Below, in pieces: positions 31,953 to 46,265 of a stretch of DNA of 64,000 bases (positions are counted from its first letter, which is position 1; each line of letters starts with the position of its first letter). Source of the stretch: Bacteroidales bacterium (lineage in GTDB: Bacteria; Bacteroidota; Bacteroidia; Bacteroidales; UBA932); NCBI GenBank assembly GCA_015060255.1, contig SUYV01000004.1, forward strand, positions 1 to 64,000. Reading direction: 5' to 3'. The translations under genes and the position numbers were made by a program. Under the pieces are notes generated by a model. That model made no database searches and had not been told where the DNA came from. It saw only the letters and a program-made list of their open reading frames with translations.

Positions 31953-32399
31953 ATGGAAAATAGATTTGTCAGAGTCCGTTCTACCAAGGACATCGTTATA
32001 TGTACACTTTTATTGGCTGCAGGCCTTCTTCTTGTCACACTTCCCGTATCTGAAGCAGTCGGCATCGCAGGATTCTTCATTCTCTTTGCAGGCCTTCTGC
32101 TCTGCTTATTGCTTAAAACCGGATATAAAGATGTAGAAACCGGTGTAAGATTCTGCAAGACAGAACGTTTCTTCGCTCAGGACATGCGCGAATGCATCAA
32201 GTCTGCACTCACCTCACCTAAGGTCATCGATTCTGCTGCCGAGGATAAAGGAAATGGCTTGAGACTTGACATATATTACAGTCAGTCAGCAGATAAGGCT
32301 TATGCGCAGCTGAACGAATACGTTCCATATAAATACGAGCCTTGTTCAAAGTATTACGAATTCAATATGGAAGAGGCTTCTAAACTTCTTGGTAGATAA
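31953..32399 (+). CDS. Hypothetical membrane protein with two TM segments
   Basis: DIVICTLLLAAGLLLVTLP and VGIAGFFILFAGLLLCLLL hydrophobic stretches; stop overlaps next gene. Confidence 0.6.
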   Translation: MENRFVRVRSTKDIVICTLLLAAGLLLVTLPVSEAVGIAGFFILFAGLLLCLLLKTGYKDVETGVRFCKTERFFAQDMRECIKSALTSPKVIDSAAEDKGNGLRLDIYYSQSADKAYAQLNEYVPYKYEPCSKYYEFNMEEASKLLGR

Positions 32400-33343
32400 T
32401 GGAATACGTAATTTTGATAGTCGCACTTGCCGGAATCGTTTTCGGTGCCGATTGGCTCGTAGACGGTTCGGTAAGCATTGCGAGAAAATTCAAGGTCTCC
32501 GATTTTGTAATCGGTGCAGCGATAGTCGGAGTCGGCACGTCAATGCCGGAACTTATGGTCAGTTTCCTTGGAGCATTGCAAGGAAATTCTGACGTTGCGA
32601 TCGGAAACGTGGTAGGTTCAAACATCTTCAACGTGCTATGCATCCTGGGAGTTACTGCTGCGCTCTTCCCTATCGCTGTGACAAAGGATAATCTCAAATT
32701 TGAGATACCATGCTGCATTGCAGTCACTCTTTTACTTACAGTATTGTCATTCAACTTCTTTAATACAGATGTTTCCGAATTGGGACGCTTCGATGGACTC
32801 ATACTTCTCGTTTCATTCGGCATATTCATGTGGCACTCATTCTACAGGGACACGAAGAACAGTCTTGCAGCAGGAACCACGGCAGAATATGAAGAAGAAA
32901 CCACGCCGGTATGGAAAAGCAGTCTCAAGGTTGCTGTCGGACTTGGCATTCTCATTTTCAGTTGCGATCAGTTTGTAGACAAAGCCATCATAGTTGCCAA
33001 ATCATGGGGTGTCAGCGAAGCGGTAATATCCATCACATTGATAGCATGCGGCACTTCCCTACCGGAGCTGGCGGCTTCCATCGCAGCAGCCGTAAAGAAG
33101 AATACGCAACTGGCATTCGGTAACATCATCGGATCGAACATATTCAACATAACGCTGATTCTTGGTCTAAGTTCGCAGGTAACCGACTTGTCTTCACCGG
33201 GAATCACCATTGTTGACTATGGTGTAGCGATAGTTGCTTCCATAATCCCTCTCCTGTTTGGATTGAAAGGTAGAATCAACAGATGGCAGGGTGTTGTCAT
33301 GATTGCAGGATTCATATGTTACACCATGTATCTATTTGCATAA
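32399..33343 (+). CDS. Calcium/sodium antiporter (CaCA, YrbG-like), copy 1
   Basis: GADWLVDGSVSIARKF, GVGTSMPELMVS, VGSNIFN, CGTSLPELAAS duplicated alpha-repeat motifs. Confidence 0.93.
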   Translation: MEYVILIVALAGIVFGADWLVDGSVSIARKFKVSDFVIGAAIVGVGTSMPELMVSFLGALQGNSDVAIGNVVGSNIFNVLCILGVTAALFPIAVTKDNLKFEIPCCIAVTLLLTVLSFNFFNTDVSELGRFDGLILLVSFGIFMWHSFYRDTKNSLAAGTTAEYEEETTPVWKSSLKVAVGLGILIFSCDQFVDKAIIVAKSWGVSEAVISITLIACGTSLPELAASIAAAVKKNTQLAFGNIIGSNIFNITLILGLSSQVTDLSSPGITIVDYGVAIVASIIPLLFGLKGRINRWQGVVMIAGFICYTMYLFA

Positions 33344-33361
33344 AACCAAGCTCAATATCAT

Positions 33362-35107
33362 ATGTTACAGATCTTTACATTATTAGGAGCGCTCGGAATG
33401 TTCCTCTACGGAATGAACCTGATGAGCTCCGGACTTCAGAAAGCTGCAGGAGACCGTCTGAGGAATTTCCTTTCGGCAATGACCTCGAACCCGTTCAAGG
33501 GAGTGCTCACCGGTCTGGGCATCACTTCAGTCATTCAGTCATCATCTGCAACAACAGTGATGGTTGTCAGCTTTGTAAATGCCGGTCTGCTCACACTTGC
33601 ACAGGCAATCAGTGTGATCATGGGCGCCAATATCGGTACAACAGTCACAGCATGGCTCGTCTCATGGCTCGGATTCAAGGCTGACATCTCAATATTCTCA
33701 GTACCTCTCATGGCTGTTGGATTCGTGCTTTCCATCTCGAAGAAAAGCCAGAGAAGAAACATTGCAGAGCTCATTGTGGGCTTTTCACTACTCTTCCTGG
33801 GTCTCTCACTGATGAAGAATTCGGTTCCGGACCTCAGCGAGACACCGGAAGTGCTTTCATTTATCCAGGGATGGCAGGGACACGGATTCGGTTCGGTACT
33901 CCTTTTCCTTGCTTTGGGTACGATCCTGACACTCGTGCTTCAATCTTCCAGCGCGACAATGGCCCTCACAATCATGATGCTGAATTTCGGATGGATCAGG
34001 TTTGACATGGCATGCGCAATGGTGCTCGGAGAAAACATCGGAACTACAATCACCGCCAACATCGCCGCAGCTGTCGGAAACCCTTCAGCAAAACGCGCTG
34101 CACTCGCCCACACCGTGTTCAATGTATTCGGAGTGATATGGGCACTTATACTCTTCCCATACTTTCTGAAGCTTGTCGGCTTCATAACAGCCGGCATATT
34201 CGGACTTCCTAATCCGTCAGGCGAAACATTCAGCGTCGTTGCAGGAGCAGAAGGGGCGCAAAGCGACACCCAGACCGCGGCATTATATGGACTGTCTATG
34301 CTCCATACTCTGTTCAACACCATCAATACATTGATTCTCATATGGTTCATACCTCTTATCGAGAAGATTGTGTGCATGGTCATCAAGGATTCAAAGAACA
34401 AAGAGGACGACGCATACAGGCTTAAATATATCAATGCTGGACCTCTGGCGACACCGGAACTCGCCATTGAACAGGCATTCAAGGAGATCGGTCATTTTGC
34501 GAGGATCTCAAGAAACGGACTCGGATACATCAAGGATGCCGTCAATGAGACAGATCCGGACAAGTTCGAGGAATATCGTGCGAAACTTGTCAAGTATGAG
34601 GAGATCTCAGACAGGATCGAATATGAAATTGCAACCTTCCTCAATGATGTATCAGCTGGCGAGATCAGCGAGAGCACATCCATAAAGATCAAGGCCATGT
34701 ACAAGATCATCGGCGAGCTCGAATCCCTCGGAGACTCCGGAGAGTCAATCAGCCGCATCCTTTCGCGCAGGAACATTCACAAGAAGACATTTGATGCCGA
34801 AACAGTCAGAAGGCTGAACTCTCTTATCAAACTGGTCGACAGCGCATATGAGGTGATGATAACTAACCTGACTCTTGCAGATGAGGCAAGGCTCGAGGAG
34901 ATTTCGAACGCTTACGACGCCGAGGACCGCATCAACAACATGCGCAACAATCTCCGCGACGAGGAGATCGAAAGCATCGAGAACGAGCGCAAGAACTATC
35001 AGACCAGCGTCTACTACCTGGATATAGTCAATGAGCTGGAAAAGATGGGAGACTTCATGATCAATGTCTCGCAGGATCTATACAAATGCAAGATTAAAGT
35101 TTCTTAA
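33362..35107 (+). CDS. Na/Pi cotransporter family protein with C-terminal PhoU-like region
   Basis: GMFLYGMNLMSSGLQKAAGDRLRNFL, TSVIQSSSATTVMVVSFV, LQSSSATMALTIMML. Confidence 0.92.
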   Translation: MLQIFTLLGALGMFLYGMNLMSSGLQKAAGDRLRNFLSAMTSNPFKGVLTGLGITSVIQSSSATTVMVVSFVNAGLLTLAQAISVIMGANIGTTVTAWLVSWLGFKADISIFSVPLMAVGFVLSISKKSQRRNIAELIVGFSLLFLGLSLMKNSVPDLSETPEVLSFIQGWQGHGFGSVLLFLALGTILTLVLQSSSATMALTIMMLNFGWIRFDMACAMVLGENIGTTITANIAAAVGNPSAKRAALAHTVFNVFGVIWALILFPYFLKLVGFITAGIFGLPNPSGETFSVVAGAEGAQSDTQTAALYGLSMLHTLFNTINTLILIWFIPLIEKIVCMVIKDSKNKEDDAYRLKYINAGPLATPELAIEQAFKEIGHFARISRNGLGYIKDAVNETDPDKFEEYRAKLVKYEEISDRIEYEIATFLNDVSAGEISESTSIKIKAMYKIIGELESLGDSGESISRILSRRNIHKKTFDAETVRRLNSLIKLVDSAYEVMITNLTLADEARLEEISNAYDAEDRINNMRNNLRDEEIESIENERKNYQTSVYYLDIVNELEKMGDFMINVSQDLYKCKIKVS

Positions 35108-35133
35108 TCTCGTGATTATTTGATAATTTTGCA

Positions 35134-35160
35134 GCCCCGATACTTCGGGGCTTTTGTTTT
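35134..35160 (+). terminator. Rho-independent terminator
   Basis: GCCCCGA tact TCGGGGC TTTTGTTTT. Confidence 0.85.
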
Positions 35161-35216
35161 GTCATCCCGAACACTTTGCGCTGTTGTCATCCCGAGCGAG
35201 CAAAGCAAGTTGAGGG
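35161..35216. repeat. Two copies of an intergenic GTCATCCCGA repeat unit
   Basis: GTCATCCCGA at 35161-35170 and 35186-35195, the second continuing CCCGAGCGAGCAAAGCAAGTTGAGGG. Confidence 0.6.
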
Positions 35217-35235
35217 AACTATAAACCAAAATATT

Positions 35236-36642
35236 ATGGCAAGAAAGAAACAAGACATCATTTTAGAGAACATCACAATAGAGGCCGTTGCAGCCGAGGG
35301 CAAGGCACTGGCCAGAGTTGACGGCACAGTACTTTTCGTGCAGTTCGCAGTGCCTGGTGACGTCGTGGACGTGAAGGTGACCAAGAAGAAGAAAAACTAT
35401 ATGGAAGGATTCATCCTCCGTATGGTCAAGCCGTCAGAGCACCGTCTGGAGCCGTTCTGCAAGCATTTCGGCGTATGCGGAGGATGCAAGTGGCAGCCGC
35501 TGCCGTACGAGATGCAGCTGCAGGCAAAGCAGCAGCAGGTGTATGACCAGCTCGTGCGCATAGGACATCTCGATGTTCCTGAAATCTCCCCTATCGTACC
35601 TTCAGATGATACTACATATTATCGTAACAAGCTGGAATTCACCTTCTCACAGAGAAGATGGATATTCGACAGCGAGGACGCCGAGGCGCTGACAGAGCAG
35701 GAGAAATATGGTCTTGGATTCCATGTCGGAAGGTTCTTCGACAAGGTTCTCGACATTGACCACTGCTACCTCCAGCCGGAGCCGTCAAACGGGATACGCC
35801 TGTTCATAAAGAACTATGCCCTGGAGCATGGCCTGTCGTTCTTCAACATCCGTGAGCATGTCGGTTTCCTTCGCAACATGTTCATCAGGACAACAGAAGC
35901 GGGAAACGTAATGCTCATAATCTGCTTCTACCATGAAGACGCAGAGGCTCGCACCGCCCTTCTCGACGCCGTAGCAGCAAAGTTCCCTCAGATCACTTCA
36001 TTGTACTATGTCATCAACGGCAAGGCAAATGATTCCATTTCTGACCAAGACTGCGTCCTCTACAAGGGAGAAGATGCGATTTATGAATATATGGAAGGCC
36101 TGAAGTTCAAGATCGGACCGAAATCCTTCTACCAGACCAATACGAAGCAGGCATACAAGCTCTATAGCGTAGCACGCGAATATGCAGCTCTGACAGGCTC
36201 AGAGGTCGTTTATGACCTATATACCGGTACAGGAACCATCGCTCAGTTCGTCTCACGCCAGGCATCAAAAGTGATCGGCATCGAATATGTTCCAGAGGCT
36301 ATTGAAGATGCAAAGATAAATGCTGCCAATAACGGGATAACAAACTGCGAGTTCTTTGCTGGCGACATGAAGGACATCCTCACAGACGCATTTGTGGAGG
36401 AGCACGGCCGTCCGGATGTCATCATCCTCGACCCGCCTCGCGCAGGCATCCATCCGGATGTAGCCCAGGTTATCCTGAACGCTGCTCCGGACAGAATGGT
36501 ATATGTCAGCTGCAACCCTGCGTCACAGGCCCGCGACCTCGAGATTCTCTGCAGAGACTATGAGATAACAGCCGTAAGGCCTGTGGACATGTTCCCGCAC
36601 ACCCACCACGTAGAAAACGTAGTCGCACTCAAGCGGAGATAA
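35236..36642 (+). CDS. rlmD: 23S rRNA (uracil-C5)-methyltransferase, RlmD-like with TRAM domain
   Basis: CKHFGVCGGCKWQPLPYEMQL [4Fe-4S] motif, VYDLYTGTGTIAQF, ILDPPRAGIHPDV, VSCNPASQARDL; true start at ATG 35236. Confidence 0.88.
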   Translation: MARKKQDIILENITIEAVAAEGKALARVDGTVLFVQFAVPGDVVDVKVTKKKKNYMEGFILRMVKPSEHRLEPFCKHFGVCGGCKWQPLPYEMQLQAKQQQVYDQLVRIGHLDVPEISPIVPSDDTTYYRNKLEFTFSQRRWIFDSEDAEALTEQEKYGLGFHVGRFFDKVLDIDHCYLQPEPSNGIRLFIKNYALEHGLSFFNIREHVGFLRNMFIRTTEAGNVMLIICFYHEDAEARTALLDAVAAKFPQITSLYYVINGKANDSISDQDCVLYKGEDAIYEYMEGLKFKIGPKSFYQTNTKQAYKLYSVAREYAALTGSEVVYDLYTGTGTIAQFVSRQASKVIGIEYVPEAIEDAKINAANNGITNCEFFAGDMKDILTDAFVEEHGRPDVIILDPPRAGIHPDVAQVILNAAPDRMVYVSCNPASQARDLEILCRDYEITAVRPVDMFPHTHHVENVVALKRR

Positions 36643-37960
36643 AATCACAATATAATCTACCCTGTTCGGCGGAAAGAACTTTCAGAGGCTGACCTTTGGA
36701 AGCGAATCCGCCGAATTTCAATGTCGCTTCAAGGATCCTGCCGTCCGATGTCTTTACTTTTCCGCTCGGACGCATGTCTGTGAAGACTTCAACTGTCTCA
36801 CCGACAAGCGTTTCCAGTCCGGATACCACGCCGGTGAATCCTTCTGATGCCTTCATCTCCTGGCGGAGAGCGATATGGTCGAATGTCTTTGTCGTATATA
36901 GTTTTCTGACAAGCCATACTGATCCGAAAATGGCAGCCGTAGCTGAAAGAATCACAATTCCCAACGGCATCAGCACCGGCTCCAGGCTGAATGTTCCGTC
37001 CCAACGATGGAATTCCACATTGTCCACCATCGCCAATGCAAGCGAGATGACCACGATTACGATACCTGATATTCCACATACACCGAATCCTGGAATTACG
37101 AATATCTCCAGTCCTATAAGGATCAGTCCCACTACGAACATCAGTATCTCCCAATGCTCGGCAAGATGGCCGACATATCCCGGTGCAAAATAAAGCAAGG
37201 CTCCGACTATGGCGGTCACCAATGGAAGTCCTATGCCCGGAGTCCTGATCTCGACGAAGATTCCTCCTATGATCATCATCATGAAGATTGACTGAAGCAG
37301 AGGATTCAGCAAGAACTGAATGAGACGGTCAACCCAAGTCATGTCATCCTCCATATTCTTGATAACAAACTCTTTATCTCCGCTCACCGCTTCTGCTACT
37401 TCAACTTCATCTTCATAGATTCCTTCGCAGTATCCTACCTTTACAGCCTCTTCCGGAGTCAGGCTCAGGACGTTTGCGGTATCAACCATTGACTCCGCGA
37501 TATGAGGATCGCGTCCCGTTGCACTTGCAGTAGATCGCATCATACCTCTCATGAAAGATTGATACTTGTCGGGCATGACCTTTCCGCTCTGATCGACAAC
37601 TGTCGCAGCACCAATGGAACTGCCTGTCTTCATATATATCGAGTCACAAGCAATGCTGATAAGAGCTCCTGCTGACGCAGCCTGAAGATTGACGTATGCA
37701 ATGACAGGCTTCGGATAGCGTAGAAGCGCTGTTCTGATACTGTCAGCAGCATCTACCGCACCACCATATGTATCCAGATCAAGGATCACATAGTCCGCAT
37801 CATTTTCCGCAGCCTTTTCCAGCCCGGTGACCACAAGTCTCTGAGCCGCCTTATCTATATCCTGATCAAGCCTTATCCGGTAAAAAACCGTAAGAGAATC
37901 CTGGGCGTTTACCACCCCTGTTAGTAAAATGGAAGAAAGAAATAATATAAAGTTCTTCAT
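36629..37960 (-). CDS. NfeD-family protein: ClpP-like serine protease + membrane + OB domains
   Basis: LDLDTYGGAVDAADSIR, QAASAGALISIACDSIYM; four TM segments; C-terminal NfeD OB-fold. Confidence 0.88.
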   Translation of the reverse strand: MKNFILFLSSILLTGVVNAQDSLTVFYRIRLDQDIDKAAQRLVVTGLEKAAENDADYVILDLDTYGGAVDAADSIRTALLRYPKPVIAYVNLQAASAGALISIACDSIYMKTGSSIGAATVVDQSGKVMPDKYQSFMRGMMRSTASATGRDPHIAESMVDTANVLSLTPEEAVKVGYCEGIYEDEVEVAEAVSGDKEFVIKNMEDDMTWVDRLIQFLLNPLLQSIFMMMIIGGIFVEIRTPGIGLPLVTAIVGALLYFAPGYVGHLAEHWEILMFVVGLILIGLEIFVIPGFGVCGISGIVIVVISLALAMVDNVEFHRWDGTFSLEPVLMPLGIVILSATAAIFGSVWLVRKLYTTKTFDHIALRQEMKASEGFTGVVSGLETLVGETVEVFTDMRPSGKVKTSDGRILEATLKFGGFASKGQPLKVLSAEQGRLYCDFISA

Positions 37961-38070
37961 AACTCTCGAAATTAGTCCTGCCACCTTACAAATATAGATA
38001 TTTTGTAGATTTTTTATAACTTTGCCATGTTTGTTTATTACGAAAATAAAGAAATAATACGTTTGAAAAT

Positions 38071-39033
38071 ATGTTTTTACAGATAATAATACTTATTGCA
38101 GGTCTCCTTCTGATTCTTTTCGGAGCCAACTGGCTTGTCGACGGCTCATCAAGCATTGCCAGGAAGACCGGCATCAGCGAATTCGTCATCGGACTGACTA
38201 TCGTCGGCATCGGCACTTCCACTCCTGAAATGGTGGTAAGCTTCATTTCGGCCTTCGAAGGAAAAGCTGACATGGCGGTCGGAAATATTGTCGGTTCAAA
38301 CATATTCAACACCCTTATGATTCTTGGCGTAACAGCCCTCATCAGTCCGCTTATCATCACGAAGAGCAACTTGAAGAGGGACATACCTCTGAACATAGCT
38401 GTCACCGCTATTCTGATATTCCTTGGAATGAAGAATTCCCTTTTCGGCATTGGCCAGGATTGCCTTACGAGAGTGGACGGAGCCATAATGCTGGCAATAT
38501 TCGCATGGTATCTGTGGAGGTCATTCAGGACTCCTTCAGATGATTGCGAAGAATCTTCAGAAGACATCAAGACCTTTTCAGGAGCCGTTTCGGCATGCCT
38601 TATCATAGCCGGCTTGGCTGCACTGATAGGAGGAGGAAAGATGTTTGTACATTCAGCAACAGCCATCGCCGAATACCTGCATCTTTCAGAGAAATTCATT
38701 GCCATCACAGTAATGGCTGCGGGCACTTCCCTTCCTGAACTCGCAACGTGTGTCGTTGCTGCAATGAAAGGTCATGGACAGCTCGCACTTGGAAATATTC
38801 TCGGATCGAACATCTCAAACATATTGCTGATTCTTGGTGGCGCCGCGCTTATCAACCCATTATCATTCGCAGGAATGACTCCTGTCGACCTGGGAGTTGT
38901 CATGATTGCAGCCGTATTCATTCTTTCCAGCGCATATACTTTCCGTGCGAACAAACTGGACAGATTTGAAGGAGGAGTTCTTCTTGCCATAGAAATCGGA
39001 TACATGATCTGGCTTTTCGTTAACCCTGCTTAA
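38071..39033 (+). CDS. Calcium/sodium antiporter (CaCA, YrbG-like), copy 2
   Basis: GANWLVDGSSSIARKTG, GIGTSTPEMVVS, VGSNIFN, AGTSLPELATC. Confidence 0.93.
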   Translation: MFLQIIILIAGLLLILFGANWLVDGSSSIARKTGISEFVIGLTIVGIGTSTPEMVVSFISAFEGKADMAVGNIVGSNIFNTLMILGVTALISPLIITKSNLKRDIPLNIAVTAILIFLGMKNSLFGIGQDCLTRVDGAIMLAIFAWYLWRSFRTPSDDCEESSEDIKTFSGAVSACLIIAGLAALIGGGKMFVHSATAIAEYLHLSEKFIAITVMAAGTSLPELATCVVAAMKGHGQLALGNILGSNISNILLILGGAALINPLSFAGMTPVDLGVVMIAAVFILSSAYTFRANKLDRFEGGVLLAIEIGYMIWLFVNPA

Positions 39034-39044
39034 AAGACATCTTT

Positions 39045-39743
39045 ATGGGGAAATTATATGATATGCTAAGGGAGGACTATCGCGTAAAGGAAGGTCTGAA
39101 GACCTGCATCAACTGCGGTACCTGCACAGCCATATGCCCTGCAGCCGAGTTCTACCGCTACGATCCACGAAAAATCGTGGATACGGTCCAGCGTGGAGAC
39201 GACGAGGAGATCGAAAAGCTCCTCAAGAGCGATGTAATCTGGTATTGCGGAGAATGTCTGTCGTGCCTGACACGATGCCCTCGCAAGAACGGCCCGGGCC
39301 TGGTGATAATGGCATTGCGCAACCTGTCCGCAAAGCTGGGATATTTTGCGGAATCGGAAAAAGGAAGACAGCTCTACCCTCTCACCAAGATAATGACCGG
39401 CAACATATTGAACTACGGATACTGCATATATCCGGACACATTCAGCTGGAAGGATCACATAGAGGCTGGGCCTGTATGGAAATGGCATACAGAGCACTTC
39501 GAAGACAGTTTCGCAAGAAACGGAGGCAATTACAAGGGCAAGGGCCCGGGAGCATTAAGAGCCATCCCGCAGGAAGACCTTGACGAACTGAAGAGCATCT
39601 TTGATGTCACCGGAGCTACTGAAAGGATCGAGACTATAGAGAAATATTCAAAGGAAAAGGCAGAGGAGATGGGAATGACGATGGAAGAATATTACCGACA
39701 CACATTCGAGTACTGCTCGGAAGGACATTTTAACAACGACTGA
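39045..39743 (+). CDS. HdrC-like [4Fe-4S] dicluster protein
   Basis: CINCGTCTAICPAAEFYRYDPRKIVD and CGECLSCLTRCPRKNGPG cluster motifs. Confidence 0.85.
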   Translation: MGKLYDMLREDYRVKEGLKTCINCGTCTAICPAAEFYRYDPRKIVDTVQRGDDEEIEKLLKSDVIWYCGECLSCLTRCPRKNGPGLVIMALRNLSAKLGYFAESEKGRQLYPLTKIMTGNILNYGYCIYPDTFSWKDHIEAGPVWKWHTEHFEDSFARNGGNYKGKGPGALRAIPQEDLDELKSIFDVTGATERIETIEKYSKEKAEEMGMTMEEYYRHTFEYCSEGHFNND

Positions 39744-39745
39744 TC

Positions 39746-40816
39746 ATGATCTATCAAGGAAAGCAGAAAATATGGAGCGACTACCAGAAAGAGATCCCCG
39801 ATGACCACTGGTATTATGTAAGAAGCTGCATCAGGCAGAACTTCTTCCCCGCTTCGGAAAAGATGTTTCTCGAGATCTGCCGCAATGTGCTCGGCAAGGA
39901 TTTCCATGAAAACGAGCACCACACGACATGCGGAGGCATTGCATACCACTGCGACACGATACCGCAGGAGACTGCGATGACAATCGTGGCGAGACAGTTC
40001 GCCCTTATGACTGAGGCCGGATATGAGAATTATGTAGCCTCATGCATCACCTCGTTCGGAAATTACACCGAAATCCTTGAGACATGGCACGAGTTCCCCG
40101 AACTCGAGGCCAAGATCAGGGAAATGCTGTGGAAATCATGCAGAAAGGAGTTCAACAAGCCGAAATATCTTGCCCATTCCAGCGACCTTATATATAAGTA
40201 TCGCAATGAGATTGCGGAAAAAGCAAAGTTCCACCTTATAAACAAGGAGACCGGCGAGCCGCTTCGCGTCGTGGAACACATCGGCTGCCATTATTCGAAG
40301 ATGTTCCCGTCCAAAGGCGTAGGCGGAGCCGAATACCCATATGTGCTGACAGGCATGGTCGAGGCATGGGGAGGCAATGTGATTGACTACCCTGAGCGTC
40401 GCCACTGTTGCGGATATGGATTCAGACAGTATCATGTCAAGGCAAACAGAGGATATTCACTCTCAAACACCCACAAGAAGTTTGAGTCCATGGAGCCTTA
40501 CAAGCCTGATATGATCATAACCAACTGCCCCGGATGCCCATACTTCCTTGACAGATGGCAGTACGTCATTGCGGAAATGGAAGGAAAGACATACGGAGAG
40601 AACGGATGTGGAATTCCGGTGCTGACTTACGAGGAAGTAGCTGGTCTTGTACTTGGATATGATCCTTGGGATCTCGGACTGCAGCTACATCAGGTAGCGG
40701 TAGAGCCGCTTCTGGACAAGATCGGCATCGAATACAATCTTGAGGACAAGTATAAGGGCGTTGACAAGAAAGACCTGCTGAAGCCAGAGCTTCCGACAAG
40801 CATCAAATGCTTCTAA
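39746..40816 (+). CDS. HdrB-like protein (CCG domain)
   Basis: C-terminal CCG site: EHIGCHYSK...RHCCGYGFR...NCPGCPYFLD; N-terminal CCG site is degenerate. Confidence 0.85.
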   Translation: MIYQGKQKIWSDYQKEIPDDHWYYVRSCIRQNFFPASEKMFLEICRNVLGKDFHENEHHTTCGGIAYHCDTIPQETAMTIVARQFALMTEAGYENYVASCITSFGNYTEILETWHEFPELEAKIREMLWKSCRKEFNKPKYLAHSSDLIYKYRNEIAEKAKFHLINKETGEPLRVVEHIGCHYSKMFPSKGVGGAEYPYVLTGMVEAWGGNVIDYPERRHCCGYGFRQYHVKANRGYSLSNTHKKFESMEPYKPDMIITNCPGCPYFLDRWQYVIAEMEGKTYGENGCGIPVLTYEEVAGLVLGYDPWDLGLQLHQVAVEPLLDKIGIEYNLEDKYKGVDKKDLLKPELPTSIKCF

Positions 40817-40836
40817 ACCAATCAACCTGAACCGAA

Positions 40837-41859
40837 ATGAAAGAGATAATAGTCATAATAGGAGGCGGAATCGCCGGACTTGAGGCGGCGTCAAACCTGC
40901 TCAAACTCGGCTACTCACCGATAATCATCGAAAAGAGTGACCATCTGGGTGGCCATGTGGCCAACTGGCATAAGCTCTTTCCTGACCTGACACCAGCAAA
41001 AGATCTTGTTGACGAACTCATAGCATCAAGCAAGGATGCAAACATATTCCTCAATACCGAGGTTTCCTTCATCAATCGTCTGAAAGACAGTTACAACATC
41101 ATGCTGTCAAACGGAATATCCATCATCACGAAGTATATCCTGATGACAACAGGCTTCAGACTTTTCGAAGCATCAAAGAAGGAAGAGTATGGATACGGAA
41201 TTTACAACCAAGTGATTACCAATTCAGACTTGGAGCATTGGTTTAATACCGGACAGGACAAACGCATAGACGAATCCCCAATGAATGCAATTGGATTCGT
41301 CCACTGCGTAGGTTCGAGAGACGAGAAGGCAAGAAACTCCCAGTGCTCTAAAGTATGCTGCATCACGGCAATCAAGCAGGCCATAGAACTGAAGGAGAAA
41401 TTCCCTGACGCCCAGATATACTGCTTCTATATGGACCTCAGGCTCTTCGGAAAGAAATTCGAGGACTTCTACACAAAGGCCCAGCGCGACCATGGCATAC
41501 ATTTCATCAGAGGACGTGTGTCAGAGGTAAGCGAGAATATCGAAGGAAAAGTAATCGTGAAGGCAGAGGACACGCTTGCCGGAAAGCCCATCAAGGTAAC
41601 ACTTGACCTGCTTGTACTCATGTCTGGAATGGTATGCAATCCCGACAGCATCAGGACTGCTTCCATGATGGCCCTCCCGATTGATTCAGACGGTTTCCTC
41701 AAGAGCAGCGACAATGTATTCCGCATAACAGCATCTCCGAAAAAGGGAATCTTCTATGCGGGAGCATGCACAGGTCCTAAAACAGTGCCCGAAACACTTG
41801 CAGAGGCAAGGTCTGCGGTCCTGGACATACATTCACACATAACATCGCAGGAGAAATGA
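40837..41859 (+). CDS. HdrA/QmoA-like FAD-binding protein without ferredoxin domains
   Basis: IIGGGIAGLEAASNLLKLGYSPIIIEKSDHLGGH; FVHCVGSRDEKARNSQCSKVCCITAIKQA; FYAGACTGPKTVPETLAEA. Confidence 0.85.
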   Translation: MKEIIVIIGGGIAGLEAASNLLKLGYSPIIIEKSDHLGGHVANWHKLFPDLTPAKDLVDELIASSKDANIFLNTEVSFINRLKDSYNIMLSNGISIITKYILMTTGFRLFEASKKEEYGYGIYNQVITNSDLEHWFNTGQDKRIDESPMNAIGFVHCVGSRDEKARNSQCSKVCCITAIKQAIELKEKFPDAQIYCFYMDLRLFGKKFEDFYTKAQRDHGIHFIRGRVSEVSENIEGKVIVKAEDTLAGKPIKVTLDLLVLMSGMVCNPDSIRTASMMALPIDSDGFLKSSDNVFRITASPKKGIFYAGACTGPKTVPETLAEARSAVLDIHSHITSQEK

Positions 41860-42194
41860 ACGGGTTCGGATTCAGACTTTCACCAAGTTCTGCAATAAAC
41901 CTGGACAAGGTAGACAGAAGCAGGTTCGAGGAGCTGTGCTCGATCGAACCGGATGCGCTGCGATGCATGTCCTGCGGATCCTGCAGCGCAACCTGCCCTG
42001 CAGCTCAATTCTCAGGCATGAGCATACGCAAGGTATTGCTGAATCTGCAAAGAGGAAAGGAGGAAGAGGCTTTCAGACTCATGTCAAACTGCATGCTGTG
42101 CGGCAAATGCACGATGGTATGTCCTCGAGGCATAAACACAAGACGCATAGTGCTGACCATCAGCAGGATATATAAGACGGAGGACAAGCGATGA
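41856..42194 (+). CDS. Second HdrC-like [4Fe-4S] dicluster protein, short form
   Basis: CMSCGSCSATCPAAQFSGMSIRKVLLNLQRG and CMLCGKCTMVCPRGINTRR; 4-bp overlaps on both sides. Confidence 0.85.
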   Translation: MNGFGFRLSPSSAINLDKVDRSRFEELCSIEPDALRCMSCGSCSATCPAAQFSGMSIRKVLLNLQRGKEEEAFRLMSNCMLCGKCTMVCPRGINTRRIVLTISRIYKTEDKR

Positions 42195-44041
42195 GAGAGA
42201 TTTACCTTTCCGGATTCAACACTTTCGTCCTTCCGTTCATGTTCGGAATGCTCTTCGTTCTGGGCTGGTGCCTGATCGGAGCGGTCAGGATCATATTCCA
42301 GCTGACTCCGGATGACAGGAAAAAGTTCTTCCTGTCATTCCTCAATCCGAAGATCATGCTCAAGAACATCAGGGACTGGTTCTGCGACTGCCTCTTCCAC
42401 GTAAAGTTATGGAAAAGAAACAAGCTGCTGGGATACATGCACTCGAGCATAGCGTTCGGATGGTTCATGATAATTGTGTTGGGACACATAGAGGTTTTCC
42501 TTTACACACCGCAGCGCATGCACCAGATGTGGTATCCGATATTTTTCAGATACTTCGTGGCCGTAACAGACAGCACCATGAAGGGATCGTTCTTCTTCTT
42601 CCTGATGGACTTCTTCCTTCTGGTAGTGCTCAGCGGGATCGTTCTGGCTATAATAAAGAGGGCCCGTTCAAGAATATTCGGAATGAGGCGCACCACCAGA
42701 GCCAGCCTTACAGATCTCATAGGACTATACTCACTCTGGGCGATTTTCCCGCTCAGACTTCTCGCAGAAGGCTTCACCGCCGATATCAGCGGAGGATCAT
42801 TCCTTACAAAGTCACTCAACCTGGTGCTTCACTCCTTCCTCAGCGACCAGATGAACATGCTCCCGACCTGGTGGGCATACTCGATCGCTCTATGCATATT
42901 CATGTGCATCCTGCCGTTCAGCAGATATATGCACATTCCAGCTGAGATCCTGCTGATACCTATGAGGAATGCGGGCATTCCGGTAAGGCATGCGCGCAAA
43001 GGAATCGCCAGATTGCAGGTATATTCATGTCCGAGCTGCGGTGTCTGCATCGACGCCTGCCCTATGGGTGTGGTGAAAGCGAACAGCAAGGACGCCACAG
43101 TATACCTTAACCGTCAGATCAAGCGAAATAATGAAAGACGCATTGAAGAAATCAGCGATAAATGTCTGCTATGCGGCAAGTGTACAGCTGTATGTCCGGT
43201 AGGTGTTGAAGGTGACAGGATCAGGATTGCCCAGAGGTCTATCAGACCTTATAACTTAGCTCCTGACTACTCGAATATAGACGAAAATTCAGCGATTTTG
43301 GCAGTTAACAATTTTGTTAGCACTAATAACAATATTGTTTCAACCGCTAATAATAAAAGGGTTCTATATTTTGCCGGATGTATGACCGCATTGACTCCGG
43401 GAATACGGAAATCAATGGAGTCAGTCCTCCGGAAAGCAGGAGTAAACTACAGAATGATGGACAAGGACGGCGGAATATGCTGCGGTAGGCCTATGCTTAT
43501 GGCCGGTAGAAAGGACCCTGCGAAAGAAATGATCCGCAAGAACACCAACATCATAAAGTCATCCGGAGCGACTACCCTACTTCTCAGCTGCCCTATATGT
43601 CTGAAGGTGTTCAAGGAAGAATATGAGCTTGATGGAATAGAAATAATTCACCACACAGAATTTATGGACAGGCTGATAGCCGAAGGCAGACTTCACGTAG
43701 AAAGTTCGGAAGTCCGCTATGCCTACCATGATCCATGTGAGCTTGGAAGAGGATGCGGAGTCTACGAACAGCCTCGCAGAGTCGTTGCCGCTGCCGGACA
43801 GCTTGTCGAAGGTGCGAAAACAGGAAAGGAAAGCATCTGCTGCGGAGGCAGTCTCGGCAGCCTGAGTCTGGGATTTGAACAGAGAAAGCTGATGACAGAA
43901 AATGCGATCAATAATCTGACTGCAGAGAATCCGGACGCAATAGTCACGGCCTGCCCTCTTTGCAAGACGACATTCGGCAGATACGCAGACAGGCCGGTAG
44001 TTGACATCGTTGAAGTAATAGACTCAAAGACAGGAAATTAA
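42191..44041 (+). CDS. HdrE-HdrD-like fusion: NarI/DsrM-type five-TM domain + [4Fe-4S] dicluster + CCG domains
   Basis: Five N-terminal TM segments, CPSCGVCIDACPMG, CLLCGKCTAVCPVG, then CCGRPM and CELGRGCGVYEQPR...CCGG...CPLC. Confidence 0.85.
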   Translation: MREIYLSGFNTFVLPFMFGMLFVLGWCLIGAVRIIFQLTPDDRKKFFLSFLNPKIMLKNIRDWFCDCLFHVKLWKRNKLLGYMHSSIAFGWFMIIVLGHIEVFLYTPQRMHQMWYPIFFRYFVAVTDSTMKGSFFFFLMDFFLLVVLSGIVLAIIKRARSRIFGMRRTTRASLTDLIGLYSLWAIFPLRLLAEGFTADISGGSFLTKSLNLVLHSFLSDQMNMLPTWWAYSIALCIFMCILPFSRYMHIPAEILLIPMRNAGIPVRHARKGIARLQVYSCPSCGVCIDACPMGVVKANSKDATVYLNRQIKRNNERRIEEISDKCLLCGKCTAVCPVGVEGDRIRIAQRSIRPYNLAPDYSNIDENSAILAVNNFVSTNNNIVSTANNKRVLYFAGCMTALTPGIRKSMESVLRKAGVNYRMMDKDGGICCGRPMLMAGRKDPAKEMIRKNTNIIKSSGATTLLLSCPICLKVFKEEYELDGIEIIHHTEFMDRLIAEGRLHVESSEVRYAYHDPCELGRGCGVYEQPRRVVAAAGQLVEGAKTGKESICCGGSLGSLSLGFEQRKLMTENAINNLTAENPDAIVTACPLCKTTFGRYADRPVVDIVEVIDSKTGN

Positions 44042-44052
44042 CGACTAAAACC

Positions 44053-45345
44053 ATGCATATGACATTCAAACCTACAAAGTATGCGCTCAGATGCTGCGCA
44101 ACAGGCAACATCTTCGAAGATGCAGGCTGGAGCCTTGCAGATCCGCATTGCGACTGCCCAAGCCTTGTAAGGGCTGAGTACGAACAGAAGAAATTCAACC
44201 CACGCGAAGATCTCGACGGATTCTACAGATATGCTGACTGGCTTCCGATCAGAAGGACACTGAAGGGATCTTGCGCTCCTATTACATATAAGAGTGAAGC
44301 CCTTGCGGAAGAATTGGGACTTGCCAATCTATATATCACCTTCTCCGGATACTGGCCGGAAAAGGGAGCAAAGATGGAAACATGCTCGTTCAAGGAGACT
44401 GAGGCATACTCGGTATGCGCAAGACTCCCGGAGAACACTGGCAAAGTGCTGGTGGTGGCATCTGCAGGCAATACTGCCAGGGCTTTTGCCAAGGTATGCT
44501 CAGACAACAACATCCCTCTCCTCATCTCCATACCGGAGGACAATATCAGCGCCTTGTGGTTTACAAAGCCGCTGAATGACTGCGTCAAGATCATTGCTTC
44601 GCCGAAAGGTTCAGACTATTTTGACGCTATCGCCCTCTCTGACAAAGTCTGCACTGACAGCAGATTCATGGCTGAAGGAGGTGCAAAAAATGTCGCAAGA
44701 CGCGACGGAATGGGAACAACCTTACTATCTGCCGTTGAAGCAATAGGAAGGATTCCGGATGCATATTTCCAGGCCATAGGAAGCGGCACGGGTACAATCG
44801 CAGCTTGGGAAAACAACCTCAGGCTTATCGAGGACGGCAGATTCGGCACTCACAAGATGCGCCTCTACCCTTCTCAGAACGATCCGTTCACCATCATGTA
44901 TGATTCATGGAAACTGCACTCAAGAGGCCTTGTCGACATGACTCCTGACCAGGCGCGTGAAGCTGCCGCAATCATAGACGCAAAGGTGCTTTCAAACAGA
45001 AAACCGCCTTACGGACTCGCAGGAGGCCTGTTTGACTCGATGGAAGATGCCGGTGGCGATATGTTCAAGGTAACAAACGAGGAACTCCATACATGGAAGA
45101 AGAGGTTCCTCGAACTCGAAGGCATCGACATCCACAACGCTGCTGCTGTGGCAGTTGCATCACTCGCCCAGGCCGTGTCATGCGGCGCAGTTGCCAAGGA
45201 CGAGACGATAATGCTCAACATCACAGGCGGCGGAGAAGAAAGAGCGAAATCCGAGCAGGAGATCGTTTATGCCAGACCGCACCTCGTGCTTGATCCTGCA
45301 TTGTCTGCAGAAGAAATCATATCAGAAATAAACAAGCTATACTAA
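44053..45345 (+). CDS. Cysteate synthase-like PLP enzyme of the threonine synthase superfamily
   Basis: GYWPEKGAKMETCSFKETEAYS PLP-lysine region (SFKE not SFKD), VVASAGNTARAF, GSGTGTIAAWE, N-terminal Cys-rich YALRCCATGNIFED; differs from canonical ThrC. Confidence 0.68.
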   Translation: MHMTFKPTKYALRCCATGNIFEDAGWSLADPHCDCPSLVRAEYEQKKFNPREDLDGFYRYADWLPIRRTLKGSCAPITYKSEALAEELGLANLYITFSGYWPEKGAKMETCSFKETEAYSVCARLPENTGKVLVVASAGNTARAFAKVCSDNNIPLLISIPEDNISALWFTKPLNDCVKIIASPKGSDYFDAIALSDKVCTDSRFMAEGGAKNVARRDGMGTTLLSAVEAIGRIPDAYFQAIGSGTGTIAAWENNLRLIEDGRFGTHKMRLYPSQNDPFTIMYDSWKLHSRGLVDMTPDQAREAAAIIDAKVLSNRKPPYGLAGGLFDSMEDAGGDMFKVTNEELHTWKKRFLELEGIDIHNAAAVAVASLAQAVSCGAVAKDETIMLNITGGGEERAKSEQEIVYARPHLVLDPALSAEEIISEINKLY

Positions 45346-45347
45346 AC

Positions 45348-46265
45348 ATGATTAAAGCTTTACTCCAAACCGCTCCTATAGATACCCTGAATGCGGTCCA
45401 GGCTGAAATTGCAGCTGTAGCCGAAAAACTGACGACAACGCCACCATCAGAACTGCTCACAGATCTTATCGACAGCGCAGTTGCTTTTGGTCTGAAAGTC
45501 ATCGCCGCATTTGTGATTTACTTCATAGGTGCATGGCTTATCAAGAAAATCAAGAAGATCCTTACAAGAATTTTCGAGAAGAGACAGACTGACGAAGCAA
45601 TCGCTTCGTTCGTTCAAAGCATCGTGAGCATTGCAATGACGATAATGCTCATCATCATAACTATCGGAGCATTAGGAATTGACACCACTTCAATTGCAGC
45701 ATTGCTTGCAGGTGGTGGAATGGCTATCGGAATGGCGCTCAACGGCACCGTACAGAACTTTGCCGGCGGTATCATGATCATACTGTTCAAGCCGTTCAAG
45801 GCCGATGACTTCGTTGAAGTGGGAGGATATTCAGGAACTGTCGTGGAAGTATCCATCACCAGCACCAAACTGAGAACAACTGACAACAGAATCATCATCA
45901 TTCCAAACGGAGTGATCTCGAACGGTACGATAAACAATTACTCGCACCTTCCTCTCCGCAGGCTTGACCTTACCGTAGATGTAGAGTATGGAACATCTGC
46001 AGAAAAGACATGCGAAGCAGTCAGTGAGCTCATAAAGGCAGACACAAGAATCCTTACCTCATCCGTTGAGGGCGCCGCAGATCCATTTGTTGCTTTAAGT
46101 GCCCTTAAAGACTCCAGCATACAGTTCGTAATCAGAGTATGGGTGAAATCCGAGGACTACTGGAATGTAAACTTCGATCTTATAGCCAAGATATATGAAG
46201 AACTTCCAAAGAAGGGAATCAACTTCCCATATCCTAAGTTGGATGTGAATATATTGAATAAATAG
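45348..46265 (+). CDS. MscS-family mechanosensitive ion channel
   Basis: AALLAGGGMAIGMALNGTVQNFAGGIMIILFKPFKADDFVEVGGYSGTVVEVSITSTKLRTTDNRIIIIPNG. Confidence 0.93.
   Translation: MIKALLQTAPIDTLNAVQAEIAAVAEKLTTTPPSELLTDLIDSAVAFGLKVIAAFVIYFIGAWLIKKIKKILTRIFEKRQTDEAIASFVQSIVSIAMTIMLIIITIGALGIDTTSIAALLAGGGMAIGMALNGTVQNFAGGIMIILFKPFKADDFVEVGGYSGTVVEVSITSTKLRTTDNRIIIIPNGVISNGTINNYSHLPLRRLDLTVDVEYGTSAEKTCEAVSELIKADTRILTSSVEGAADPFVALSALKDSSIQFVIRVWVKSEDYWNVNFDLIAKIYEELPKKGINFPYPKLDVNILNK

Follow-up and report, generated by a model that had tools for sequence, protein, structure and literature searches.

A five-gene operon encoding heterodisulfide reductase (Hdr)-like proteins was identified at positions 39045 to 44041 of a 64,000-nt stretch of DNA (the window) from a Bacteroidales bacterium (assembly GCA_015060255.1, contig SUYV01000004.1, positions 1 to 64,000; genome 2.05 Mb, 84.7% complete). 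The encoded complex is very probably part of sulfonolipid metabolism, and it is likely that it supplies sulfite, whichever direction its reaction takes. The single most likely mechanism, which we favor with some confidence, is that of an oxidative, menaquinone-coupled, sHdr-like complex making sulfite for the synthesis of sulfonolipid (capnine). The five genes are as follows.

39045 to 39743, + strand, C1: HdrC-like dicluster ferredoxin in the HdrC1 position, 232 aa (Pfam Fer4 dicluster)
39746 to 40816, + strand, B1: HdrB-like CCG protein, 356 aa (Pfam CCG; PDB HdrB matches)
40837 to 41859, + strand, A: short HdrA-like FAD/[4Fe-4S] protein of sHdrA size, 340 aa (Pfam Pyr_redox)
41856 to 42194, + strand, C2: second HdrC-like dicluster ferredoxin, 112 aa (Fer4_8, Fer4_7)
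42191 to 44041, + strand, mD: HdrDE/EtfD-like membrane-Fer4-CCG-CCG fusion, 616 aa (Pfam Fer4 and two CCG)

The genes lie on a single strand, separated by 2 bp (C1-B1) or 20 bp (B1-A) or overlapping by 4 bp (A-C2 and C2-mD), and the Pfam domains of all five subunits exceeded the gathering scores. Coordinates, spacing and domains agreed with the first-pass annotation, which had described five adjacent Hdr-like genes with tiny gaps or 4-bp overlaps. When gene order was checked among relatives, C1-B1-A-C2-mD was kept at all of the 68 GTDB loci whose sequence was long enough, and thus the arrangement is not due to chance. CCG domains were detected nowhere else in the window's genome. Ligand conservation was counted over 39 to 56 homologues per subunit, and the ligands of all subunits were invariant or nearly so. 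The eight ligand cysteines of C1 were 100% conserved and those of C2 were invariant, corresponding to two [4Fe-4S] clusters in each protein. The HdrA motif of A (C157, C170, C174 and C175) was invariant. In B1, the second CCG site was complete (C181, C221, C222, C261 and C264, all invariant) and the first was degenerate (T-C-G), with C28, C62 and C100 invariant. The mD protein consists of a heme-b/quinone-type membrane domain (residues ~1 to 260) with near-invariant His70, His84 and His248, a dicluster region (280 to 335) and a CCG region (397 to 591). Its eight cubane cysteines were kept, giving two cubane sites, and both of its CCG sites were complete, with C397, C430, C431, C467 and C470 invariant in one and C516, C550, C551, C588 and C591 invariant in the other. 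These five Hdr-like genes make up a compact operon whose products have a full set of cofactor ligands.

By profile comparison, the subunits are Hdr-like proteins of an uncharacterized branch, since none came near the NCBIfam cut-offs for HdrA/B/C, QmoC, DsrK and TmcB. When they were searched against the characterized Hdr, Qmo, Dsr and Tmc models, no subunit attained a cut-off (bits/equivalog cut-off: HdrA2, 241/1100; HdrB, 134/450; HdrC, 78.9/350). Membership in QmoABC, DsrMK or TmcB was ruled out on the same basis (QmoC, 49/300; DsrK, 54/400; TmcB, 52/735); the homology to these systems is distant and confined to single domains, and the window lacks a sulfate-respiration context. The A subunit had been called HdrA/QmoA-like. 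The HdrA-like part of this description held, as indicated by the HdrA motif, but the top PDB match was not QmoA; it was 6tjr (349 aa; 199.6 bits over residues 5 to 330, with the four cysteines aligned), which we take to be the sHdrA of Hyphomicrobium.

Immediately downstream of the complex, 11 bp 3' of mD, begins a gene of sulfonolipid synthesis.

44053 to 45345, + strand, cysteate synthase, archaeal type (TIGR03844, 478 bits versus a cut-off of 324.9)

The product matched the solved cysteate synthase 9k3c with 574.6 bits, and its gene still adjoined the complex in loci from which all other window neighbors were gone (L021, L045 to L053, L058 and L071). The first-pass annotation had drawn the unit as 39045 to 44041; the five genes were correctly delimited, but the functional unit reaches further, at least to the cysteate synthase. 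A nine-gene run, VOC-SulA-KCR-like SDR-C1-B1-A-C2-mD-cysteate synthase, was found in L021, L053 and their relatives, as well as in L292 and L293, which belong to the window's own family. This run is a sulfonolipid (capnine) operon. Clustering of open reading frames over the 68 loci returned sulfonolipid genes as the sole specific recurrent families, together with APS reductase in Hdr-less loci; apart from a generic ABC-type ATPase and spurious reading frames, no other specific recurrent neighbor was found in these loci. The earlier statement that the partner of the complex is unknown is therefore superseded, the recurrent specific neighbors being enzymes of sulfonolipid synthesis.

The acyltransferase of L021 scored 548 bits to 7u7h, 532 bits to the cysteate acyltransferase 28eh and 233 bits to serine palmitoyltransferase. 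Judged by these scores, it is SulA, a cysteate acyltransferase of the SulA/CapB type (PMC9304779), and not serine palmitoyltransferase. The window genome's own SulA is encoded on another contig (C9:14851-16086; 584 bits to 7u7h) and keeps the equivalents of the catalytic residues Lys251 and Lys281. In the window's genome, SulA lies between gyrB and a 425-aa protein without a Pfam match (L215:10124-11401), a possible partner enzyme. A VOC-fold protein of ~350 to 370 aa recurs with SulA, with or without Hdr genes (L021:362-1438, and also L047, L053, L200, L205, L206, L246, L249 to L251, L264, L265, L292 and L293). No PDB relative of this protein was found by sequence; it is possibly responsible for a further step of sulfonolipid synthesis.

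In a tree of B1, the SulA-linked loci formed two supported clades. The second of these (100% SH-aLRT; L200, L205, L206, L207 and L209) contained SulA, VOC and KCR genes in different arrangements, and in four of its five loci a threonine-synthase-like PALP protein was encoded where the cysteate synthase gene usually lies. The genomes of this clade (G340, G379, G406, G440 and G484) lacked the TIGR03844 cysteate synthase. Genes for the threonine-synthase-like PALP were also observed near SulA more widely (L206:1972-3195, and in L200, L205, L207, L246, L249, L259, L260, L267, L269 and L271). This protein was encoded in 50 of the 248 genomes that make up our sample of the order, and within SulA-positive genomes it and the TIGR03844 cysteate synthase were nearly exclusive, with one genome carrying both (p=4e-9). 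The threonine-synthase-like PALP is a candidate for a third type of cysteate synthase.

The distribution of the complex was compared with that of SulA in the order sample and in a sample of 140 genomes from the window's family, many of the genomes being metagenome-assembled. In the family sample, which contained 70 genomes with the complex, 93 with SulA and 3 with APS reductase, SulA was present in all 70 complex-bearing genomes, and 47 of the 70 genomes without the complex also lacked SulA (p=8e-20). The association was also seen across the order (SulA in 177 genomes, the complex in 83 and APS reductase in 158; p=2e-8). When one genome was taken per family (n=118), a sampling that lessens phylogenetic dependence and leaves some, the complex remained associated with SulA (p=1.3e-4). 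The association of the complex with the TIGR03844 cysteate synthase across the order was weak (p=0.05), a different cysteate-synthase-like enzyme being in use in other families, and SulA is the better marker. Outside the order, a phylum-level search with B1 returned just weak homologues (at most 31% identity).

APS reductase is the usual source of sulfite, and in families other than the window's it occupies the position next to SulA. Either it or the complex was present in 165 of the 177 SulA-positive genomes of the order versus 20 of the 71 SulA-negative genomes, and the corresponding association in the one-per-family sample had an odds ratio of 20 (p=4e-9). Among the SulA-positive genomes of the latter sample, the complex and APS reductase were anticorrelated (odds ratio 0.28, p=0.02). 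An APS/PAPS reductase gene was located within ~3.2 kb of SulA in seven genomes (G355, G360, G367, G383, G444, G466 and G539), two of these reductases being confirmed against NCBIfam cut-offs, and the complex was absent from six of the seven. The gene order was SulA-APS reductase-PALP in L249 and L269, and SulA-PALP-C1-B1-A-C2-mD in L207.

The closest parallel to the complex is the sHdr system, whose genes are ordered hdrC1B1A-hyp-hdrC2B2 and accompanied by LbpA, and for which sulfite has been proposed as the product, by the reaction R-SS- + 3 H2O -> R-S- + HSO3- + 5 H+ + 4 e- (PMC6067878). The window complex shares with sHdr the order C1-B1-A-C2-B2, the short HdrA-type flavoprotein, the CCG subunits and, as proposed for both, a sulfur chemistry that ends in sulfite. 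It differs in that "hyp" is missing, the B2 part forms a single chain with a quinone-type membrane domain in mD, and the link is to lipid biosynthesis rather than lithotrophy. A cluster on a plasmid of Picosynechococcus sp. PCC 7003 (L257:11242-16982) likewise has the order C1-B1-A-C2-B2, with identities to the window proteins of 41% (B1), 43% (A) and 47% (C1); however, its B2 is soluble (290 aa) and is followed by an SQR-like flavoprotein, and no sulfonolipid genes were seen around it. Searches of plasmids for sHdr references returned only Picosynechococcus and distant matches.

The CCG and dicluster architecture is shared with HdrDE of Methanosarcina and HdrABC of methanogens, and mD resembles HdrE and HdrD in one chain, although A lacks the extra domains of HdrA and there is no coenzyme M/coenzyme B context. 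Both complete noncubane CCG sites of the HdrABC/HdrDE catalytic subunit were present in mD. In Foldseek searches, the AlphaFold2 model of mD (mean pLDDT 88) was nearest to EtfD of M. smegmatis (9ojn, TMq 0.70) and then to HdrB. EtfD has the same membrane helices, dicluster and two CCG domains, but it carries electrons to menaquinone without catalysis of its own, one of its clusters having Thr instead of a Cys and the other being completed by His (PMC13083937), whereas mD keeps all ten CCG cysteines and no ETF is encoded in the window locus. Since the full Hdr ligand set is kept, unlike in EtfD, mD probably unites a quinone-reactive membrane domain with noncubane sites of the catalytic type. 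The histidines, the two cubane and two CCG sites, and the EtfD/HdrB-like fold predicted for mD support the suggestion of the first-pass annotation that the complex is a quinone-coupled sulfur/thiol oxidoreductase.

The sHdr-like order, together with the soluble version of the complex beside an SQR-like flavoprotein in L257, leads us to propose the oxidation of persulfide to sulfite. We infer sulfite as the product, persulfide as the substrate, an oxidative direction and menaquinone as the acceptor. Persulfide (R-S-SH) would bind to the noncubane Fe-S sites of B1 and mD and be oxidized there to sulfite. The electrons would travel by way of A (FAD/[4Fe-4S]) and the C1, C2 and mD diclusters, reaching heme b and menaquinone in the mD membrane domain. 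Cysteate synthase would draw off the sulfite and so pull the oxidation forward; it would convert O-phosphoserine and sulfite to cysteate, and cysteate would in turn be converted to capnine by SulA and the ketoreductase. From known potentials, persulfide oxidation with menaquinone would be near equilibrium for sulfane sulfur and favorable from sulfide. The chances are about even that the complex is a dedicated anaerobic sulfite synthase, menaquinone coupled, independent of LbpA and TusA and devoted to biosynthesis of the sulfonate head group of gut sulfonolipids, that takes over from sulfate assimilation as the source of sulfite across a lineage of gut Bacteroidales.

Several observations weigh against the proposed sulfite-forming role. 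Many complexes of the wider order do not lie beside sulfonolipid genes, and two distant relatives (L066 and L069) showed no sulfonolipid link. The anticorrelation with APS reductase was absent when all genomes of the one-per-family sample were considered (p=1.0), and 52 SulA-positive genomes of the order carried both systems. Conversely, neither was found in 23 of the 93 SulA-positive genomes of the family, mostly of genera g335 and g145, and no other sulfite source was obvious near SulA at the loci checked in these genomes. The direction and substrate proposed here are taken from homology. No recurrent LbpA gene was found in the loci, the only strong GcvH of the window's genome sits in a gcvT-gcvH-gcvP glycine cleavage system, and TusA (PF01206) was not found in that genome at its 84.7% completeness. 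LbpA and TusA being hallmarks of known sHdr systems, the complex was not filed as sHdr. L278 to L286 are SulA loci of family genomes lacking both the complex and APS reductase.

The main rival to persulfide oxidation on chemical grounds is a reductive supply of sulfite, in which the noncubane clusters would use electrons from menaquinol or thiols to cleave the S-SO3 bond of thiosulfate, S-sulfocysteine or another S-sulfo-thiol, freeing sulfite and a thiol or sulfide. Such a reaction would rely on disulfide cleavage, a chemistry known for CCG sites, is compatible with the full Hdr ligand set of mD, and explains the gene linkage, the co-occurrence and the exchange with APS reductase equally well. 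However, the gene order is that of the oxidative sHdr cluster, the SQR-like flavoprotein of the cyanobacterial cluster suggests that sulfide or persulfide is oxidized there, and the potential of thiosulfate cleavage lies well below that of menaquinol. We consider this alternative unlikely. A generic quinone-linked thiol/disulfide oxidoreductase serving redox balance, whose link to sulfonolipids is incidental or reflects shared ancestry only, would account for the many loci of the wider order that are not linked to SulA and for the 6 of 83 complex-bearing genomes of the order without detected SulA. It is quite unlikely given that the link is seen in two distinct clades, for the most part with unlike candidates for cysteate synthase, that the family genomes with the complex have SulA without exception, and that no other specific neighbor recurs.

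Two further alternatives place the complex beside sulfonolipid synthesis or coenzyme synthesis without a role in sulfite formation. It could carry electrons to or from menaquinone for another redox step of sulfonolipid synthesis, such as one performed by the VOC protein or a modification of the acyl chain. The VOC protein is a recurrent partner with no assigned role, and EtfD, the nearest fold to mD, is an electron wire. Against this, L246 and L249 to L251 have VOC and SulA with APS reductase and no adjoining complex, and thus the VOC protein does not need the complex; moreover, the exchange partner of the complex makes sulfite and the CCG sites of mD are of the catalytic type, which leaves this explanation distinctly improbable. 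In a coenzyme M-like system, cysteate would serve coenzyme M synthesis and the Hdr genes would reduce its heterodisulfide. The archaeal-type cysteate synthase does serve coenzyme M synthesis in Methanosarcina, the sole control genome that matched TIGR03844, and the subunits are Hdr homologues. However, the same operon holds SulA and a KCR-like SDR rather than coenzyme M genes (L021, L292 and L293), and the second-clade genomes lack the TIGR03844 enzyme. This pathway was judged unlikely on operon content, no search for comDE having been made, and we give it very little credence.

The co-directional run that contains the complex is bounded by two transport genes.

38071 to 39033, + strand, Na+/Ca2+ exchanger, first gene of the run (TIGR00367, 228.9 bits)
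45348 to 46265, + strand, MscS-type channel, last gene of the run (Pfam MS_channel)

Both are kept in close relatives only and probably lie outside the mechanism. Upstream of the complex, positions 32399 to 39033 contain two Na+/Ca2+ exchanger genes and a NaPi-like cotransporter gene, the second exchanger ending 11 bp before C1. The MscS channel, the Na+/Ca2+ exchangers and an LPLAT protein were considered as parts of the mechanism and dropped, being lost from more distant loci. Second C1-B1 copies without A, C2 or mD were observed in L218, L221, L225 and L230, with DUF134-like, NifX-like or Mrp-like ATPase genes near C1-B1 in the loci read among them. In L203, L235 and L236 (family f52), B1-A lies at a distance from SulA, and no C1, C2 or mD was found at the locus, a split or reduced system.

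Sulfonolipids are produced by gut bacteria such as Alistipes (PMC9304779, PMC5591296), and those of Bacteroidota have effects on other organisms, one of them inducing a choanoflagellate to develop multicellularity (PMC3463246). The enzymes linked to the window operon are those of the described pathway, namely cysteate synthase, SulA/CFAT/CapB and KCR/CapC (PMC9304779, PMC11211663). We found no published sulfite source for this pathway and no published account of the origin of sulfite in gut anaerobes that lack sulfate assimilation; within the open-access literature, subscription papers lying outside the search, no paper contained both "heterodisulfide reductase" and "sulfonolipid." The complex is a concrete candidate for the sulfite source of the sulfonolipid pathway in gut anaerobes. 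If this is true, Hdr-like sulfur chemistry would reach from energy metabolism into biosynthesis, and the complex, as a membrane-bound and apparently simpler system, would lend itself to the study of sulfite formation by noncubane Fe-S clusters.

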